From: Halobacterium sp. CBA1132
GTDB taxonomy: Archaea > Halobacteriota > Halobacteria > Halobacteriales > Halobacteriaceae
DNA length: 64,000 nucleotides
Assembly: GCF_001485535.1 (NCBI RefSeq)
Contig: NZ_BCMZ01000001.1
Location: 992,001-1,056,000 of the forward strand
Reading direction: 5' to 3'
Each line of letters begins with the position of its first letter. Positions within the stretch are counted from its first letter, which is position 1. Positions 23-27,944 of this stretch are shown here, one piece after another. The position numbers and the translations under genes were made by a program. The notes below the pieces were generated by a model that saw only the letters and a list, made by a program, of their open reading frames with translations, ran no database searches and had not been told where the DNA came from.

Positions 23-2065
23 TCACTCGCTTCTCACCGACGCGTTCACGTAGGCGCCGTCCGGCCCGACGCCGGGCACGTACGCGGCGGCGCCCTCGCA
101 GTTCCGCAAGTCCGTGCAGAGTTCTCGATATGGCGTCATCGTCCGGTAGCCGTCGTCGGTCCGCTGGACGGGGAACCGGACGCGGTACGCGAACCCGGCG
201 CCGTAGCCGCCGTCGACGTGCGCGTCGAGTACGACGCTGGCCGCTTCACCGAGCGGCACCGACGCGTTCTCGCTCCCGGAAGATAGTCGCACGCGTCCGT
301 TCGAGACCGCGAGCGAGACGTTCGCACTCGACGCGTTCCGTGGCGTGACCGTGACGTACGTCTCCTCGTCGCCCGCCGTCAGCGTGAGCGTCACCGTCTG
401 CGTCCACGACGGCAGCCCCAACTCCGTGTCCACGGTCAGCGACTCGCCGCCCGCGACCTGAATTCGCCGGAGGTCGGGGTCGACCGGGTCGCCGCCGTAC
501 GGCGACCACGACCCGCGGTAGACGTACCGGTAGAGCGTGCGGTCCGGGTACTCGTCGGCGACGGCGAGCGGGCGCTCGTCGAGCGCGTAGACGGTCCGGC
601 CGTCGAAGCCCGGGTCGTTGCGCAGCGGCTGGAACGGGTGGTTCAGCCAGTCGCCGTACGGGTCCGGGAGGAAGACGACGCTGTTCGCGGGCGGCCGCGG
701 CTCGAACGGCTCGTAGGCGGCCTCGTAGTGGTCGGTGAGTTCGGCGTTGTCCCGGACTTGCTCGGCCGTCGCGGACGCCGCGACGCCTCCGAGAACCGCG
801 CTCGCGACGAGCAGGACGGCCAGCGCCGCTGCGAGCGCGCGGTTCGTGGAGAGCCGGCTCGCGGCGGCGTCGCGGACGCGCTCGGCGCCCGCGAGCAGGC
901 CGGCGCCGGCGAACGCGCTCACGGGGACGAGCAGGTCGAAGTGGTAGTACGGCCCGAGCGTCGTAATCAGGCCGTTCGGGTCGTCGATGTCCCCGAGGAT
1001 GTTGAAGTTCCCCCAGAAGTAGACGTTCCCGACGACGACGCTGACCGCGACGCCCGCGAGGACGGCTTGCTGCCACGTCCAACCCCGACGATGGGTGGCG
1101 TACGCGCCGACGGCCGCCAGCGGCACGCCGAGCGCGCCGAACGGCGCCCACTCGGTGACGAACTGTTCGAGGACGCTCGCGTTCGCGCGCAGCGCCACCT
1201 CGACGGTGTACTGAATCTCGTGGTTCAGTATCTCGCGGCGGCCGAAGCCGAGGCCGTCCAGCGGCGCGAACGCCTGATACGGGAACACCAGCGGGTCGCC
1301 CGTGACGACGGCGTTGTACGCGAGCGCGACGGCGACCCCACAGAGACCGAACGCGGCGGTCGCGACGCGCCGGCGGAACAGTTCGGAGAAACGGCGTTCG
1401 CGGAGTGGCCCGCGGAGCGTCCAGACGGCGTGCAGGATGAACGGCGTCGCGAACAGGACGGCCGTGTAGGGACGCGAGAAGAACGCGAGGCCGACCGACG
1501 CGCCCGCGACGGCCGCCCACCGAGTGCTCCCGGTGCGTTCGGCGCGGAAGTACGCGAGCGCGAACGCGAGGTTCAGCATCGTCGTCGGCGCGTACGGCAG
1601 GAAGACCGCCGACTGCACGGCGAACAGCGGTGAGCACAGCAGGACGACGGCTGCGAGCAGCCCCGTCCGGTGGTCGAAGGCGTTGCGGACGACGCCGTAG
1701 AGCAGGGCGACGTTGGCGGCGGCGACGGCGGGGAGCGCGTACCGGTAGCTCCCGGCGAGTTCGCCGAGCGCGTAGACGGCGGCGGTGACGGGCGCGTACT
1801 TCGAATAGAGGCCGCGCGGCGAGTCCACGAAGAACCACGGGCGGAACGAGCCCTCGACGGGCGGGTGGAGGAACAGTTTGCCGTCCAGCAGCATCGCGGC
1901 CTGCTGGAGGTAGACGGCTTCGTCGTGGTTCGTGGAGTGGTACGGAAAGACGGTAACGGAGAGCGCGTACGCCGCGAGCGCGGCGACGACCGCGAGTACT
2001 GCTGGCGTGAAAAGGCGACTGCCGCGGGCGTGAGAGACGAGTTGGCGGATGCGCCCGCCCGTCAT
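23..2065 (-). CDS. GT-C family membrane glycosyltransferase (ArnT/PMT-like)
   Basis: A 680-residue membrane protein that probably moves a sugar from a lipid-phosphate carrier to an acceptor on the outer face of the membrane. After a first membrane segment (about residues 15-40) comes a luminal-type loop with NHDEAVYLQQA, matching the acidic DE motif of GT-C enzymes. Some ten further hydrophobic segments follow, then a soluble C-terminal domain from about residue 450 with several N-x-S/T sequons. The ATG at 2065 is chosen over an upstream in-frame GTG because it overlaps the stop of the ABC ATPase gene as ATGA, so it is probably the last gene of the iron transporter operon. The sugar and the acceptor cannot be read from the sequence. 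Confidence 0.8.
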   Translation of the reverse strand: MTGGRIRQLVSHARGSRLFTPAVLAVVAALAAYALSVTVFPYHSTNHDEAVYLQQAAMLLDGKLFLHPPVEGSFRPWFFVDSPRGLYSKYAPVTAAVYALGELAGSYRYALPAVAAANVALLYGVVRNAFDHRTGLLAAVVLLCSPLFAVQSAVFLPYAPTTMLNLAFALAYFRAERTGSTRWAAVAGASVGLAFFSRPYTAVLFATPFILHAVWTLRGPLRERRFSELFRRRVATAAFGLCGVAVALAYNAVVTGDPLVFPYQAFAPLDGLGFGRREILNHEIQYTVEVALRANASVLEQFVTEWAPFGALGVPLAAVGAYATHRRGWTWQQAVLAGVAVSVVVGNVYFWGNFNILGDIDDPNGLITTLGPYYHFDLLVPVSAFAGAGLLAGAERVRDAAASRLSTNRALAAALAVLLVASAVLGGVAASATAEQVRDNAELTDHYEAAYEPFEPRPPANSVVFLPDPYGDWLNHPFQPLRNDPGFDGRTVYALDERPLAVADEYPDRTLYRYVYRGSWSPYGGDPVDPDLRRIQVAGGESLTVDTELGLPSWTQTVTLTLTAGDEETYVTVTPRNASSANVSLAVSNGRVRLSSGSENASVPLGEAASVVLDAHVDGGYGAGFAYRVRFPVQRTDDGYRTMTPYRELCTDLRNCEGAAAYVPGVGPDGAYVNASVRSE

Positions 2066-3192
2066 CCTTGCTTGGGGTACCACGCCAGCGAGTGGTCGGC
2101 GACGAGGTCGACGGTGACGGGTTCGCCGACGGCCATGTCCTCGGCGTGGTTGTGCAGGCAGCGCACGACGTCGCCGTTGTCCAGTTCGACGTGGTAGATG
2201 AACGACGGTCCGGTGTACTGTCGGCGGACGATGGTGCCGTTGGCGTTGGCCTCGTTGTCGGGGACGGCGCGGAGGTCGTCCGGTCGCACGAGCACGTCGA
2301 CCATCGCGCCGGCGTAGCCGTCGGCCAACCCCTTCAACAGCGTCCGGTCGTAGCTCCCGATGGACGTGTCGACGGTGTCGCCGCCGACGCGCGCGGAGAG
2401 GAACCCCGCCTGTCCGAGGAAGGACGCGACGAACCGCGACTCGGGGTGCTCGAACACCTCTTCGGGGTCGCCGACCTGTTCGAGTTGGCCGTCGTTGAGC
2501 ACCGCGACGCGGTCCGAGATGGAGAGCGCTTCCTCCTGGTCGTGGGTGACGGAGACGGCGGTGACGCCGGCCTCCTTGAGGATGCGCCGGACCTCCTCGC
2601 GCATCTCCACGCGCAGGCGGACGTCCAGATTCGAGAACGGCTCGTCCAACAGGAGGATGTCGGGTTCGGGCGCGAGACTGCGCGCGAGCGCGACGCGCTG
2701 CTGTTGGCCGCCCGAGAGCTGGTCGGGCGAGCGGTCGCCCATCCCGGGCATGTCCACGAGGTCGAGCAGGTCGTCGACGCGCTCGTCGGCGGCGTCGCCG
2801 TCGCGGTCGGTGAGTCCGAACGCGACGTTCTCCCGGACCGAGAGGTGCGGGAACAGCGCGAAGTCCTGAAAGACGATGCCGACGCCCCGCGACTCGGCCT
2901 CCACGAACGTCGACGGCCCCGCGACCGTCTCGTCACCCAGCGAGATGACGCCCTCACTGGGGCGTTCGAGGCCGGCGAGCATGCGCAGCGTCGTCGTCTT
3001 CCCGCAGCCCGACGGTCCCAGGAGTGTGAGGAGTTCGCCGTCGCGGACGGACAGCGAGAGGTCCGTGACCGCGGTCTCGGAGCCGTACTCCTTGGTCACG
3101 GCGTCGAGTTCGAGCACCGCGTCGGCGGCGTCGGTCGGTCCGTCGGCGTCGGAGTCGACCGTCGCGTTCGTCGTGAGTTCGCTGTCAGCCAT
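2062..3192 (-). CDS. ABC transporter ATP-binding protein (iron(III)/thiamine/spermidine type)
   Basis: The 376-residue energy-coupling subunit of the importer encoded by the two upstream genes. It shows Walker A GPSGCGKTTT, a Q-loop (VFQDFALFPHLSVRENVAFGL), the signature LSGGQQQRVALARSL, Walker B ILLLDEPFSNLD and the switch His in SVTHDQEEAL. A TOBE-type C-terminal domain follows. The start is set at MADSELTTNAT because the upstream part of the open frame lies inside the permease gene; the ATG overlaps the permease stop by 8 bp. It is followed by the glycosyltransferase through an ATGA overlap. The substrate is inferred from the binding protein to be ferric iron. Confidence 0.93.
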   Translation of the reverse strand: MADSELTTNATVDSDADGPTDAADAVLELDAVTKEYGSETAVTDLSLSVRDGELLTLLGPSGCGKTTTLRMLAGLERPSEGVISLGDETVAGPSTFVEAESRGVGIVFQDFALFPHLSVRENVAFGLTDRDGDAADERVDDLLDLVDMPGMGDRSPDQLSGGQQQRVALARSLAPEPDILLLDEPFSNLDVRLRVEMREEVRRILKEAGVTAVSVTHDQEEALSISDRVAVLNDGQLEQVGDPEEVFEHPESRFVASFLGQAGFLSARVGGDTVDTSIGSYDRTLLKGLADGYAGAMVDVLVRPDDLRAVPDNEANANGTIVRRQYTGPSFIYHVELDNGDVVRCLHNHAEDMAVGEPVTVDLVADHSLAWYPKQG

Positions 3193-4792
3193 TGTATCGT
3201 TCCTGTGCGAGGATGACGACCATCGAGAGCGCGGACACGCCCACGAGCACGAGCGCGGGTATCGCGGCCGCGCCGTACGAGCCGGCCCCTCTGACGAGCC
3301 AGATGTAGGAGACGAGGGTTTCAAAGCCTATCGGACTGAGCATCAGTGTCGCCGGGAGTTCCTTCATCGTCGTGAGGAAGACCAAGGCAGCGCCGGCGGC
3401 GACGCCGGGCGCGATGAGCGGCAGCGTCACCTTCCGGAACGCGCCGAACGGCGACCGGCCGAGCGTGCGCGCGGCCTCCGTGAGTTTCGGGTCGACCTGG
3501 AGGACCGACGAGCGCACCGTGCCGACTGCCTGCGGGAGGAAGCGCACGACGTACGCGAACACGAGCAGCGGCACGGTCTTGTACAGCGACTGGGTGAACT
3601 CCGTGGAGAGGTACAGCAGTGCGAGCCCGACGACGACGCCGGGAATCGCGTAGCCGACGTACGTCAGTCGGTCGGTCAGCGTCGAGAACAGCGACGAGGA
3701 GCGCGCGGCGTATCCGGCGACGGGCAGCGCCAGCAGGGACGCGACGAGGGCGGCGGCGACGGCGACTTTGAGGGAGTTCCACGCGACCACGGGTTCGAAA
3801 TCGAAGACCGCGGCGCCGGCCTGCTCGAACCACCACGCGAGCACGCCCAGCGGCACGCCCAGCGAGAGCACCGCGACGGCCGCACAGAACGCCATCGCGG
3901 GCCACTTCCAGACGCCGAGCGTGATGCGGCCGGGCTGGCGGGAGCCACGGGAGACGTAGGACGCGTCGCCCTCGCCGATGCGGGATTCGAGCGCGAGCAC
4001 GACGGCGACCACCGCCAGCAGTTGCAGCGAGAGCAACGCGGGGTAGCCCTCGGGGACGCCGAGGCTGCGCTGGGCGATGTATATCTGCTGGGTGAACACC
4101 TCGTAGCGCATGATGGAGGGCGTCCCGAAGTCAGAGAGCGCGTACAGCGCCGCCAGCAGCGCGCCGGCGGTGACGCCGGGCAGAATCTGGGGGACGGTGA
4201 CGCGCTTGAACGCTTCCCAGCGCGAGTGGTTGAGGGTGCGCGCGGCTTCCACGAGCGTGCCGTCGAAGGACAGCAGCGCGGCCCGCGTGGTGAGGAAGAC
4301 GTAGGGGTACGTGAACAGAATCAACACGAGCGCGGTGCCGTGGAGCCCGTAGATGGCGGGGATGCGTTCGACGCCCAGCGGCGCGAGCGCGTCCGCGAGG
4401 TCGCCCTGGGGGCCGAACGCGGAGGCGAACGTGAACGCGCCGATGTAGCTGGGGACGACCAGCGGGAGCGCGGCGACGACGGTCCAGAATCGCCGCCCCG
4501 GAAGGTCGGTTTGGACCGTGAGGACGGCCAACGGGACCCCGATGAGCACACAACCCAGTGTCACCCAGAACACGAGCACGAGGCTGTTGGCGAGCACGTC
4601 GAGGCTGCCGGTCTGCGTGAGGAGGCCGAAGAGGTGGCCGAACCCGTAGTTCGACGCGCGAACGAGCAGGCCGACCAGCGGCAGGGAGACGAACGCGGCG
4701 ACGGCGCCGGCGAGCACGGCGAGCGAGAGCCCCGGCTCGTCGTCGCCACCGACCGCGTCTCGGAGGCGTGCGAGGCGCTCGCTGGCCGCCAT
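3185..4792 (-). CDS. ABC transporter permease, fused two-domain type (FbpB/ThiP-like)
   Basis: A 535-residue permease with about twelve membrane segments, formed by two tandem BPD_transp_1 domains (about residues 60-260 and 330-530). Each half carries the EAA loop that contacts the ATPase: EAARTLNHSRWEAFKRVTVPQILPG in the first half (seen in part) and EAARTLGRSPFGAFRKVTLPL in the second. This fused layout is usual in ferric iron and thiamine importers. The ATG directly abuts the stop codon of the binding-protein gene with no gap, so the two are co-transcribed. Confidence 0.92.
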   Translation of the reverse strand: MAASERLARLRDAVGGDDEPGLSLAVLAGAVAAFVSLPLVGLLVRASNYGFGHLFGLLTQTGSLDVLANSLVLVFWVTLGCVLIGVPLAVLTVQTDLPGRRFWTVVAALPLVVPSYIGAFTFASAFGPQGDLADALAPLGVERIPAIYGLHGTALVLILFTYPYVFLTTRAALLSFDGTLVEAARTLNHSRWEAFKRVTVPQILPGVTAGALLAALYALSDFGTPSIMRYEVFTQQIYIAQRSLGVPEGYPALLSLQLLAVVAVVLALESRIGEGDASYVSRGSRQPGRITLGVWKWPAMAFCAAVAVLSLGVPLGVLAWWFEQAGAAVFDFEPVVAWNSLKVAVAAALVASLLALPVAGYAARSSSLFSTLTDRLTYVGYAIPGVVVGLALLYLSTEFTQSLYKTVPLLVFAYVVRFLPQAVGTVRSSVLQVDPKLTEAARTLGRSPFGAFRKVTLPLIAPGVAAGAALVFLTTMKELPATLMLSPIGFETLVSYIWLVRGAGSYGAAAIPALVLVGVSALSMVVILAQERYNG

Positions 4793-5947
4793 CTACGAGA
4801 GGATGCCGACGTCCTCCAGCAGTTCGATGGTGGGTTGGACGTCCGACAGCGACTGGAGGTCCAACTCCGGCGGCGACAGTTCCTCGATGGTGGGCAGCGG
4901 GCCGACGGGCTCGACGCCGTCTATCATCGGGAACGCGAACCCGCGGGTGGCGAGGAACTCCTGTGCTTCCGCGGAGAGCAGGTGGCGAACGAACAGGTCC
5001 GCGAGGTCGGCGTCGCTGGCGCCGTCGAGGACGCTGGCGCCCGCGGTGTTGACGAACGCGCCGGCGTCGTTCTCGGTGAACGCGAGGTCGAGGGGGGCGT
5101 CGGGGCTGTTCGCGAACACGAGAATCGGGTAGTAGTGGTTCGTGAGCCCGAGGCCGACTTCGCCGTTCGCGATGCCCTGCGAGACGGCGGCGTACTCGCT
5201 GCCGTAGCGCGCGGGGTTCTGTTCGAGCATGTTGTTCAGCCACTCGCGGGTGCCGTCGTCGCCGCGGAGTTGGCGCATCGCGGTGACGAACCCGTGGAAC
5301 GCGCCGTAGGTGGGCGCCCACCCGATGGACTCGGTGAAGCGGTCGGCGGTCGCGATTTCGTCGACGCTGGTGGGAATCTCGTCGGCGCTGAACTGATTGG
5401 TGTTGTACGGAACCGCGCGCGACCGGCCGGCGACGCCCGCCCACTGGTCGGTGACGAATCGGTCGTCGCCGACCATCGAGCGGGCGTTGCTGGACAGCTC
5501 GAGGGTCGCGCCGTTCTCCGCGACGTACGCCAGCGAGCCGGCGTCGACGGACCAGAACACGTCGGCCTGCGTGGTCCCGCTCTCGTATTCGTCGACGATG
5601 ACGTTCGCGAGCTGGGAGGAGGGCTGCGTCTGCGTGGACGCCGTGAAGCCGTCGTAGTACTGGTCGAGCAGGTCGATGAGCGTGGTGTAGCGGCCGCCTT
5701 CGCCGCCGCCGAGGTAGATGGAGAGTTCGCCTTCGAGGTCCGGGAGGTCCTCGATGGAGGTGCCGCCGGGGACGGGTCGGTCGGAGACGATTTCGCCGGA
5801 GCCGCGGAAGTCCGCGAGCGTCGGCCGGTCGTCACTGTCGCTGCCGCCACTGCCGAGGATACCCGAACAGCCGGCGAGTGCGGTCGTCGAAGCTACGCCC
5901 GCCGCCGCGAGGAAGCGCCGACGCGTCTGACTCTGTCGCTCTCTCAT
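4793..5947 (-). CDS. Iron(III) ABC transporter substrate-binding lipoprotein
   Basis: A 384-residue extracytoplasmic solute-binding protein. The N-terminus has a twin-arginine motif (RRRFL) and a lipobox (LAGC), so it is probably exported by Tat and anchored by a lipid. The body reads as a family-1 periplasmic binding protein of the FbpA type; NHYYPIL in the second half recalls the paired tyrosines that bind ferric iron in FbpA. It heads the binding protein-permease-ATPase-glycosyltransferase operon. A TATA-like element and a DtxR-type palindrome lie immediately upstream, and the TATA spacing predicts a leaderless mRNA starting near the ATG. Another oxidised metal or thiamine is a less likely substrate. 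Confidence 0.9.
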   Translation of the reverse strand: MRERQSQTRRRFLAAAGVASTTALAGCSGILGSGGSDSDDRPTLADFRGSGEIVSDRPVPGGTSIEDLPDLEGELSIYLGGGEGGRYTTLIDLLDQYYDGFTASTQTQPSSQLANVIVDEYESGTTQADVFWSVDAGSLAYVAENGATLELSSNARSMVGDDRFVTDQWAGVAGRSRAVPYNTNQFSADEIPTSVDEIATADRFTESIGWAPTYGAFHGFVTAMRQLRGDDGTREWLNNMLEQNPARYGSEYAAVSQGIANGEVGLGLTNHYYPILVFANSPDAPLDLAFTENDAGAFVNTAGASVLDGASDADLADLFVRHLLSAEAQEFLATRGFAFPMIDGVEPVGPLPTIEELSPPELDLQSLSDVQPTIELLEDVGILS

Positions 5948-5955
5948 GTGTTGGA

Positions 5956-5969
5956 TTAGGCTGGCCTAA
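5956..5969. promoter_or_regulatory. DtxR/IdeR-like metal-regulator operator upstream of the iron ABC operon
   Basis: TTAGGCTGGCCTAA is a near-perfect inverted repeat (TTAGGC / GCCTAA) matching the form of DtxR/IdeR-family sites. It lies between the TATA-like element and the ATG of the binding-protein gene, where a bound repressor would block the preinitiation complex. Haloarchaea have Idr-type DtxR homologues that control iron genes; binding here is inferred. Confidence 0.75.
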
Positions 5970-5970
5970 A

Positions 5971-5980
5971 ACTCTTATAA
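5971..5980 (-). promoter_or_regulatory. TATA box of the iron ABC operon
   Basis: On the minus strand this reads TTATAAGAGT, about 25-30 nt upstream of the ATG at 5947, which is the spacing for a leaderless archaeal transcript. Confidence 0.65.
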
Positions 5981-6001
5981 CTACCGGTTCCGGCGTCCGG
6001 G

Positions 6002-7150
6002 TCAGTCGTCGGCGGGCGCCGCCGCGCGCTGCTCGGCCAGTTCCGCACAGCAGTCCACCCAGTCGAGCAGGTACTCCCCGCACTCCGCGAGGAACGCGCC
6101 GTTGTTGTACTCCTCGTAGTCGCCCTCGACGAGGCGCTCGCCGACCGCCCGCGCGACTGCCTCGTAGGAGTCCTCGTCGGGCTCGACGGCGGCGACTTCC
6201 TTCCAGAAGTGCTCGTTCAGTTCGAGGCCCGCGACCTCGTTGGCGAGGTCGTCGAACGTCGACCGCGGCGCCTTGTTGTGCTCGCACAGCGGCGCGCCGT
6301 TGTAAATCTCGCCGCCCACCACGTCGGCCGCGCGCTTCAGGAGGACGCCGCTCCAGATGTCGTCGAAGCGCCCGACCTCCCACGCGTTGTCGTCCATCGG
6401 GAACTGGTAGAACGCGGGTACGACCTCGCGGCGGAACGCGAGGTTCATCGAGCACACCGTGAGGTAGTTCTCTTCGGCGGCGACGAAGTCGCGGTCGAAG
6501 TCCGCGAAGTCCGTGCGCGTCTGGGCCTGTCCCTGCAGGTCGCCGTCCATCAGGATGCGCACCGCGTCGAGGTCCGGGACGTTCGTCCAGAGCCCCTGCG
6601 AGGCGACCACGTGCTCCGTCTCTGTGGTGTCTGTCTCGATGTCCTCGTCCATCGCGGCGTAGGGGTAGCCGCGCGGGTAGAGGTCCGAGTCGGACTGGAA
6701 GAGGACGTTCACCCACTGCTCGTCGGAGGACACTTCCTCGACGCTTCCCTCGTGGGCGAGGTTGTCGAGGTGCGTTCCGAAGAAGTCCCACTCGTCGTGG
6801 GGGAGCGTGTCGTCGTCGATGAACACGCCGTACTCGAAGTCGTTGGCCCACAGATAGAGGAGGCCGAACGACGTCTGCGCGTGGCTGGCGGCGGGAATCA
6901 GGTGGCTGTACTCGGCAATGTCCTGTTCGGCGAACCACGATTCGCGGTCGCTGCCGTCGAAGACGGCGCCGGCGACGCCCTCCTCGTCGAGCATCGCGCG
7001 CATCCCGTCGGTGTCACAGAAGTCCTCGGTGACGAGGACGACGAACAGGCGGTCGAGGTCGAAGCCGTGGTCGCGGGCGTTCTGGAAGTACTCCCGCATG
7101 CACTCGTACTCCCGAATCGTCGGCACGACCACGCAGACGTCTCGGTTCAT
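6002..7150 (-). CDS. Reversibly glycosylated polypeptide / UDP-arabinopyranose mutase-like protein
   Basis: A 382-residue soluble protein resembling the RGP family (often labelled alpha-1,4-glucan-protein synthase). Supporting motifs are an N-terminal VVVPTIRE, the acidic FIDDDTLP near residue 115 (nucleotide-sugar site), YPRGYPY, ASQGLWTNVPDLDA, CSMNLAFRREV and GRFDDIWSGVLLK. In plants these proteins interconvert UDP-arabinopyranose and UDP-arabinofuranose or are self-glycosylated; the archaeal role is unknown. It sits upstream of the iron importer in the same direction, separated by 54 bp that carry the importer promoter. Two DtxR-like palindromes precede it, one in the core-promoter position, so metal control is likely. 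Confidence 0.8.
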   Translation of the reverse strand: MNRDVCVVVPTIREYECMREYFQNARDHGFDLDRLFVVLVTEDFCDTDGMRAMLDEEGVAGAVFDGSDRESWFAEQDIAEYSHLIPAASHAQTSFGLLYLWANDFEYGVFIDDDTLPHDEWDFFGTHLDNLAHEGSVEEVSSDEQWVNVLFQSDSDLYPRGYPYAAMDEDIETDTTETEHVVASQGLWTNVPDLDAVRILMDGDLQGQAQTRTDFADFDRDFVAAEENYLTVCSMNLAFRREVVPAFYQFPMDDNAWEVGRFDDIWSGVLLKRAADVVGGEIYNGAPLCEHNKAPRSTFDDLANEVAGLELNEHFWKEVAAVEPDEDSYEAVARAVGERLVEGDYEEYNNGAFLAECGEYLLDWVDCCAELAEQRAAAPADD

Positions 7151-7166
7151 CCGTTGGACTCGTCTA

Positions 7167-7182
7167 TTTAGGCCACCCTAAA
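7167..7182. promoter_or_regulatory. DtxR-like palindrome overlapping the promoter of the RGP-like gene
   Basis: TTTAGGCCACCCTAAA is a 16-bp imperfect inverted repeat of the same type as the site before the iron operon. It lies 17-32 nt upstream of the ATG at 7150, overlapping the likely TATA position on the minus strand. Confidence 0.7.
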
Positions 7183-7195
7183 ATGGGTGTCGATG

Positions 7196-7211
7196 TTTAG
7201 GCCGTCCTAAA
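7196..7211. promoter_or_regulatory. Second DtxR-like palindrome upstream of the RGP-like gene
   Basis: TTTAGGCCGTCCTAAA is another 16-bp inverted repeat, spaced 29 bp from the first (start to start, nearly three helical turns). It begins just after the stop codon of the upstream membrane-protein gene. Two sites in nearly the same helical phase suggest cooperative binding. Confidence 0.7.
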
Positions 7212-7214
7212 CAC

Positions 7215-7922
7215 TCAGGTGAGGCCGGCGACCGACTGCTGGAGGCGCACCGTCGGCGGCACCAGCAGGCCGCCGAGCAACACGAGGAACACGTAGAAGA
7301 CGCCGTCCGCGACAGCAGCGGGCGCCAGCAGCGCCAACGCGTCCGCGACCGCGACGCCGGTCGCGCACACCAACACCAACAACAGGTGGCGGCGCAGCGT
7401 ATCCAGCACCGTTCCGTGGGCCAGCGACTCCAGTCGCTCGCTGAACGCCACGCCGTACGTCGCGAACGCGAGCGCGCCAACCGCCTTCACGCCCGCCGCC
7501 ACCGCCGGCTGGTCGATGAGCACGACGACCAGCCACTCCACGGCGACGACGACCACGAACCCGAACTCCAGCCGCCGCACCCGTTCGAGGGAGACGGCGC
7601 GCTCGTCGGGCGACGGCGCGAGCGCGCTGTTGAAGTACACCTCCCGGAGCGCGAACGTCAGGAACGCGATGGCGACCAACAGCGAGACGTCCGCGAACGC
7701 GCGCACCACGCTCCCCGCGCCCGCCGTCAGCGCCAGTCCGAGCGCGCCGAACACCGCGAACGCCAACCCGAGGTACGTGAGGTACCCCCAGAAGTCGTCG
7801 TACCCCTCCAGCCGGTCGAACGCGTAGTTCTGGACCGCGTAGTACGTGAACGACAGCCCCGCGACCACGACGATGCCGTAGCCCGCGAACGCGACCGCAA
7901 ACAGCGTCTCCGCGGCGGTCAT
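7215..7922 (-). CDS. Multi-pass membrane protein paired with a pseudokinase
   Basis: A 235-residue hydrophobic protein with about six or seven membrane segments and a short charged cytoplasmic loop near residues 100-115. I do not recognise a characterised family. Its ATG overlaps the stop of the HEAT/kinase-like gene as ATGA, so the two are co-translated and may act together at the membrane. No catalytic motif is visible. Confidence 0.75.
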   Translation of the reverse strand: MTAAETLFAVAFAGYGIVVVAGLSFTYYAVQNYAFDRLEGYDDFWGYLTYLGLAFAVFGALGLALTAGAGSVVRAFADVSLLVAIAFLTFALREVYFNSALAPSPDERAVSLERVRRLEFGFVVVVAVEWLVVVLIDQPAVAAGVKAVGALAFATYGVAFSERLESLAHGTVLDTLRRHLLLVLVCATGVAVADALALLAPAAVADGVFYVFLVLLGGLLVPPTVRLQQSVAGLT

Positions 7923-27039: not shown

Positions 27040-27837
27040 TTACGCGACGAGCAGCGGGAGCATCGCGAGCACGCCGACGACCAGCCCGACGAGCAGTTCG
27101 CGGTGGCCGCCGTTCGGGAGGCGGCGACCGACTTCGCGCGCTTCGGGGATGAACTCGGTGAGCACGAGGTAGACCATCGCGCCGCCGGCGAACCCGTAGC
27201 CGATGGGGAGCAGCGGGCGCGCGAACTGGACGAACGCGAACGCCAGCACCGCGCCGATTGGCTGGGGGATGCTCGTGAACACGGCGACGCCGACGAGCTT
27301 CCAGTGGCGCGCGCCGTGCTCGTGGAGGGGAATCGACACCGCCAGCCCCTCCGGGATGTTGTGGATGGAGATGGCGATGGTCATGAAGACGGCGAGCAGG
27401 GGCACGGAGAAGCCCAAAATCGGGTAGCCGCCCTCCAGCCCCATGTCGGCGAAGGAGACGCCGACGGCGACGCCCTCCGGGAACGAGTGGACCGTGAGCA
27501 CGCCCGCGACGAGCACGAGCTTCTCGAAGTCGGCTTGCGCGATTTCGCGGGGTTCGAACTCGTGGTCGTCGATGACGCGGCGCGCCGCGACGACGAGCGC
27601 GACGCCGACGAGCGCGCCCGCGCCGACGTCGAGTGGGGTGCCGTAGTTGAGGCCTTCGCGGAACAGCCCGAACCCGGACGCCGACAGCATGATGCCGGAG
27701 GCCAGTCCCCAGAGGGCGACGCGCCAGCGGTCGTCGACGTCGTCGACGAAGAAGAACGGGAGTGCCCCGAGGCCGGTGGCGAGATCCGTCAGCAGGCCCG
27801 CGAAGAACACGAACGCGAGCGCTCCCGTCAGTTCCAT
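27040..27837 (-). CDS. ZIP-family divalent metal transporter
   Basis: A 265-residue membrane protein with eight predicted segments. The metal-path motifs of segments IV and V are present: TVHSFPEGVAVGVSFADMG and IHNIPEGLAVSIPL. A His-containing loop (DDHEFEP) lies between segments III and IV. It is expected to import zinc or a related metal. The ATG at 27837 is preferred over an upstream GTG. A single GCCTAAA element lies in the 107 bp before the divergent MazG-like gene. Confidence 0.9.
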   Translation of the reverse strand: MELTGALAFVFFAGLLTDLATGLGALPFFFVDDVDDRWRVALWGLASGIMLSASGFGLFREGLNYGTPLDVGAGALVGVALVVAARRVIDDHEFEPREIAQADFEKLVLVAGVLTVHSFPEGVAVGVSFADMGLEGGYPILGFSVPLLAVFMTIAISIHNIPEGLAVSIPLHEHGARHWKLVGVAVFTSIPQPIGAVLAFAFVQFARPLLPIGYGFAGGAMVYLVLTEFIPEAREVGRRLPNGGHRELLVGLVVGVLAMLPLLVA

Positions 27838-27944
27838 ATCCGAGAACACGAACGTCGCGCGAATAGTTCTTTTCTTTCGAGAAACAATTTTTTGGAAAGC
27901 CTAAACCGTGCGAGTGAAGGTGGTTCGGTCTCACCCCTCGGCGT

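Follow-up and report, generated by a model that had tools for sequence, protein, structure and literature searches.

A haloarchaeal locus of GT75, FbpA-type importer, and GT-C genes carries DtxR-type operators and is predicted to join surface glycosylation to iron uptake

A locus of Halobacterium places a GT75-family gene, an FbpA-type ferric-iron import operon, and a terminal GT-C glycosyltransferase gene behind DtxR-type operator palindromes. The operators, the gene order, the protein families, the catalytic residues, and the co-inheritance of these components are all evident from sequence comparisons among haloarchaea. Our preferred reading, toward which these features lean, is that iron starvation would switch on both Fe(III) import and a lipid-linked pathway of surface glycosylation whose sugar is probably a furanose.

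Gene order and operators of the locus

The window, which is the entire 64,000-nucleotide stretch of DNA that was analyzed, derives from a Halobacterium genome of 3.01 Mb (G000). The first gene of the locus (6002–7150, reverse strand) encodes a 382-aa candidate RGP-like NDP-pyranose mutase of family GT75 that matches PF03214 and the enzyme MtdL. It is followed on the same strand by genes for an FbpA-type ferric-iron-binding lipoprotein with Tat and lipobox signals (the solute-binding protein, SBP; 4793–5947), an FbpB-like ABC permease with two BPD_transp_1 stretches (3185–4792), an FbpC/PotA-like ABC ATPase with a TOBE_2 domain (2062–3195), and a 686-aa GT-C glycosyltransferase with PMT_2 and DUF7846 matches (23–2083). 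The ABC operon is tightly packed, such that the SBP stop codon is followed directly by the permease ATG. The GT-C open reading frame can start with GTG at 2083 or with ATG at 2065, and the latter overlaps the ATPase stop codon in the sequence ATGA, which agrees with an earlier sequence-only reading that had described the terminal GT-C gene as translationally coupled.

That reading had also placed three palindromes at promoters, one before the iron ABC operon and two before the GT75 gene, and all three are exact matches to TTAGGN4CCTAA. The operator TTAGGCTGGCCTAA (5956–5969) lies 9 bp upstream of the SBP start codon, between a TATA-like TTATAA (5975–5980) and the ATG at 5947. The operator TTAGGCCACCCTAA (7168–7181) occupies positions −31 to −18 relative to the GT75 ATG, whereas TTAGGCCGTCCTAA (7197–7210) is 29 bp further upstream at −60, leaving intervals of 18 and 47 bp, respectively, to the start codon. 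This tandem −60/−31 pair is found in most close Halobacterium relatives. The longer form TTAGGC..GCCTAA that was originally proposed applies to the 5956–5969 site and not to TTAGGCCACCCTAA or TTAGGCCGTCCTAA; the actual consensus is TTAGG-N4-CCTAA, with the extended form TTTAGG-N4-CCTAAA. No exact palindrome is expected by chance (0 in 100 dinucleotide shuffles). The operators do not serve the upstream gene at 7215–7922, because that gene runs in the same direction and ends at 7215.

A scan of the 3.0-Mb genome recovered 19 exact sites compared to two for a reversed control pattern, and no sites for a variant with N5 spacing between the half-sites, so the motif is not equally frequent at unrelated loci. 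Most of the 19 sites precede genes for iron or siderophore transport (Peripla_BP_2 binding proteins, FecCD permeases, and ABC ATPases). The rest are at the GT75 locus, at a gluconate-dehydrogenase-subunit-3/GMC pair, at genes for an FAD oxidoreductase and a regulator, and at a few unknowns. Of 99 genomes across the order, the great majority have more matches to the pattern than to its control; among the exceptions are the f2 genomes without a site, G060, and G063. The genome scan and this wider enrichment, with palindromes at promoters and concentrated at iron genes, indicate that the motif is an iron-type operator rather than common background.

Further sites were noted in the same genome. 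A one-mismatch operator, TTTGGAAAGCCTAA (27891–27904), is located ~42 bp upstream of a gene that by eye resembles ZIP-type metal transporters (27040–27849, reverse strand) and that might also belong to the iron regulon; the operator has the same variant form as the one preceding the GT2 gene described below. Two exact operators (G000:C3:29408 and 29443; L024:5409 and 5444) precede the gene for a 405-aa protein on a replicon. This protein appears to be secreted and C-terminally anchored and could correspond to the secreted protein that adjoins an iron-induced Haloferax RND permease, although its own neighborhood yielded no RND gene. Another exact operator (G000:C1:319000; L017:5001) is situated 8 bp upstream of a gene whose only matches are DUF7551 and DUF7552.

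DtxR-family proteins also sense Mn, and this genome carries at least three DtxR-family genes. The operator might accordingly serve a regulator that responds to Mn or Zn rather than to iron, and GT75 enzymes of known structure indeed use Mn2+ (PMC9937993). Because the sites concentrate at genes for iron and siderophore transport (FbpA, Peripla_BP_2, and FecCD), we regard a signal other than iron as very unlikely. Haloarchaeal iron regulators of this family, as described in PMC11349517, include Idr1 and Idr2 of Halobacterium and Idr, SirR, and TroR of Haloferax.

Importer and sugar enzymes

Among solved structures, the SBP is closest to ferric-iron-binding proteins, with 7w3w as its best PDB match (E 3.9e-44). 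When aligned to these proteins, the tyrosine pair that serves as iron ligand in FbpA proteins corresponds to Y272/Y273, which is retained in 77/77 homologs. A lipobox is present in 75 of the 77, most of which also carry a Tat motif. The system resembles FbpABC, HitABC, and SfuABC ferric importers in its binding-protein tyrosine pair and in its permease and ATPase types, but differs from them in that the last gene of the operon is a translationally coupled GT-C.

The GT75 protein scores 51.1 bits against the Pfam RGP family (curated cut-off 23.8) and matches MtdL in the PDB both by sequence and by predicted fold (AF2 model pLDDT 91; Foldseek TM 0.82, probability 1.00). Its residues DDD112–114, R160, S234, R261, D264, and H291 are invariant wherever aligned. 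We used the MtdL residues previously shown to matter for function (PMC9937993) to map these positions. The aspartates and the metal-binding H291 correspond to D109–111 and H287 of MtdL, and R160, present in 89/89 sequences, aligns with R159, the autoglycosylated or catalytic arginine. All mappable positions at which mutation destroys the mutase activity of MtdL (D109, R159, R257, and D260) are invariant; in place of MtdL Q229 and of an Arg close by, this protein has Met. The fold, the DDD motif, the catalytic Arg, and the equivalents of Asp260 and His287 are common to this protein and to MtdL, Hyg20, and plant UAM/RGP proteins (PMC9937993). Identity to MtdL over the fold alignment is ~21%, and the haloarchaeal gene adjoins an iron importer instead of belonging to an antibiotic or cell-wall locus. 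On the basis of these residues and the modeled fold, the protein is likely to be a mutase.

GT75 proteins also self-glycosylate on the conserved Arg, equivalent to R160 here, and some plant members have neither activity (PMC9937993). These facts could be accommodated if the homolog were a self-glycosylating carrier or primer protein, an interpretation that we consider most improbable with every mapped residue essential for the MtdL mutase left intact.

For the GT-C protein (AF2 model pLDDT 83.5), fold matches include STT3/AglB, ArnT, PMT, and EmbB. Residues N52, D54, and E55 are invariant and form an N-x-D-E motif in the first outer loop, such that the multi-helix fold is accompanied by the acidic motif at the position typical of this class.

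The resemblance of the GT-C protein to the protein-modifying enzymes STT3/AglB and PMT, as well as to ArnT, raises the prospect that, instead of building a general surface glycan, the GT75, GT2, and GT-C proteins specifically glycosylate FbpA or further lipoproteins that bind iron, as a means of protecting or tuning them. Consistent with such a role, every haloarchaeal locus with adequate sequence has the SBP gene between those for GT75 and GT-C, including loci whose permease and ATPase genes are elsewhere in the cluster. However, the SBP alignment lacks a conserved N-X-S/T sequon, which argues against N-glycosylation of FbpA through such a site, and FbpA homologs are kept in genomes devoid of GT75 and GT-C. 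An FbpA homolog occurs in 52 genomes without GT75 (10 of these at E ≤ 1e-80), showing that iron import has no need of the sugar step. We consider lipoprotein glycosylation an unlikely purpose of the module; a surface glycan or glycolipid would be the alternative target.

Conservation across the order and the wider cluster

Among 293 genomes sampled from the order, GT75 was detected in 220 and GT-C in 214 (E ≤ 1e-60). Both genes occur in 213 genomes, and 72 have neither (phi 0.93). Of the seven GT75-only genomes, six belong to one genus (g11) with weak GT-C matches and one matches GT75 only weakly; the lone GT-C-only genome is 77% complete. We regard the association as ancient. The order GT75 > SBP > (permease, ATPase) > GT-C holds in every haloarchaeal locus with enough sequence; three departures (L074, L091, and L097) reflect contig ends or gaps, and Natronomonas aquatica (L107) is the exception. 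Loss of the permease and ATPase genes from some genera can be dismissed, since the permease usually sits 7–9 kb away in the same cluster.

One locus was taken per genus, giving 40 loci from more than 10 families. In all 40, an operator with no more than one mismatch lies 90 bp or less from the GT75 start (exact in 38), compared to a shuffled null of 0.01 to 0.14%. The proximal site falls at −25 to −35 in nearly all loci, although these distances may be off by a few codons because start codons were chosen by script. An exact operator also precedes the SBP gene in 34 of the 40. Sequence counts of this kind do not equal independent events; nevertheless, the breadth of families, the single locus per genus, and the variable spacer bases make inheritance without selection unlikely. 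Chance palindromes are excluded by the dinucleotide shuffles, the genome control pattern, and the 40-genus null, and we hold with very high confidence that the operator and its conservation are real.

The locus belongs to a larger cluster, beyond what the sequence-only reading had encompassed. In many genera, genes within ~10 kb of GT75 also encode a GT2, an NAD-dependent epimerase, a protein of the LPG_synthase_TM (UPF0104) family, and a gluconate-dehydrogenase-subunit-3/GMC pair exported by Tat. The GT2 gene of this genome (C1:990922–991629) is ~0.4 kb outside the window end and is preceded by the one-mismatch operator TTTGGCAAGCCTAA; the best solved relatives of its product are dolichol-P-mannose synthase and ArnC. 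Exact or one-mismatch operators occur at 42/46 GT2, 20/20 LPG_synthase_TM, and 28/35 subunit-3 (GLDH3-GMC) loci, and are essentially absent as separate sites at GT-C, GMC, and epimerase genes (1/20 for the epimerase). In this genome, the GMC pair has moved to a position 97 kb from the locus, yet 12 bp upstream of its start it retains an exact operator (G000:C1:1096936; L019). That the site has persisted although the genes have parted speaks well for shared regulation. The LPG_synthase_TM homolog of Halobacterium is remote from the locus and lacks an operator, as does the UPF0104 homolog found in Haloferax.

AglD, AglR, and AglS of Haloferax constitute a lipid-linked sugar transfer system. This system, ArnC/ArnT, and the mycobacterial decaprenyl-P-arabinofuranose/Emb pathway have in common with the cluster a GT2 resembling polyprenyl-P-sugar synthases, a multi-pass protein, and a GT-C with an ArnT/STT3/EmbB-like fold. 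The haloarchaeal cluster differs in including a GT75 mutase candidate and iron operators.

GT75 proteins 54–60% identical to the haloarchaeal protein are present in Nanohaloarchaea (L104, L105, L106, and L108). Neither there nor in N. aquatica does the gene have an operator or an FbpA neighbor; it instead lies beside genes whose products are sulfatase-like, LPG_synthase_TM, or GT2 proteins. This finding suggests that the enzymatic role of GT75 is not tied to iron, and it is possible that the gene has passed between host and symbiont lineages. In bacteria, other envelope genes also follow iron. Glycan-type neighborhoods without iron boxes, together with the persistence of FbpA without GT75, are what would be expected if iron were merely a cue by which the cell adjusts an ordinary S-layer or lipid glycan during scarcity, with no direct part for the glycan in iron capture. 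The module nonetheless tracks the FbpA gene and the iron operator throughout the order, an association that seems tight for a mere cue, and we find this explanation doubtful.

A predicted pathway and its significance

The conserved operator-GT75-FbpA-GT-C arrangement, the ferric type of FbpA, and the mutase residues and fold of GT75 strongly support the original prediction that DtxR-type iron control would extend to a surface-sugar step together with uptake. In the scheme we favor, an iron-loaded DtxR-family repressor (FerR/Idr type) would occupy TTTAGG-N4-CCTAAA at the GT75 and FbpA-operon promoters. With presumed repression by iron, low iron would release both transcription units together, and the iron operators thus imply that the sugar pathway would be made when iron is scarce. 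FbpABC would import Fe(III), while GT75 would convert an NDP-pyranose to the NDP-furanose if it has the expected mutase activity. GT2 would then transfer the sugar to what is probably dolichyl phosphate, the LPG_synthase_TM protein may aid its passage across the membrane, and GT-C would move it to an acceptor outside the cell, with the steps presumably occurring in this order.

A bolder version is that the cluster makes a dedicated surface glycan or glycolipid containing furanose, possibly oxidized by the exported GMC protein, which collects or reduces Fe(III) at the cell surface and hands it to FbpA. We hold this to be improbable; if true, archaea would have in this sugar an equivalent of a siderophore that stays bound to the cell.

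A ferR regulon signal before fhu operons is described in PMC11349517, and in the archaeal FerR/DtxR-family regulon (Leyn and Rodionov 2015, cited therein) iron and siderophore ABC genes are preceded by palindromes of DtxR-like type, as FbpA is here. What differs is that GT75, GT-C, the cluster GT2, LPG_synthase_TM, and the GMC pair share these operators. Within literature that covers the key regulon papers incompletely, we found no link of GT75 or GT-C to iron in archaea and no description of sugar genes under FerR/DtxR-type operators. In a Haloferax iron-starvation proteome (PMC11349517), no locus gene was recognized in the text passages covered or in the table of changes of at least 10-fold, in which HVO numbers were left unmapped. 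The same source reports increases for HVO_1859 (UPF0104 family, +11.6) and HVO_0655 (GalE family, +12.7), whose families are also represented in the cluster.

The locus is a new module within a known type of regulon. Its genes are present in the genetically tractable organisms Haloferax and Halobacterium salinarum, and the connection between iron status and the cell surface is therefore directly testable. The archaeal GT75 family gains a physiological context, and a regulon type known for uptake genes is widened to an apparently complete lipid-linked glycosylation pathway that is conserved across haloarchaea.
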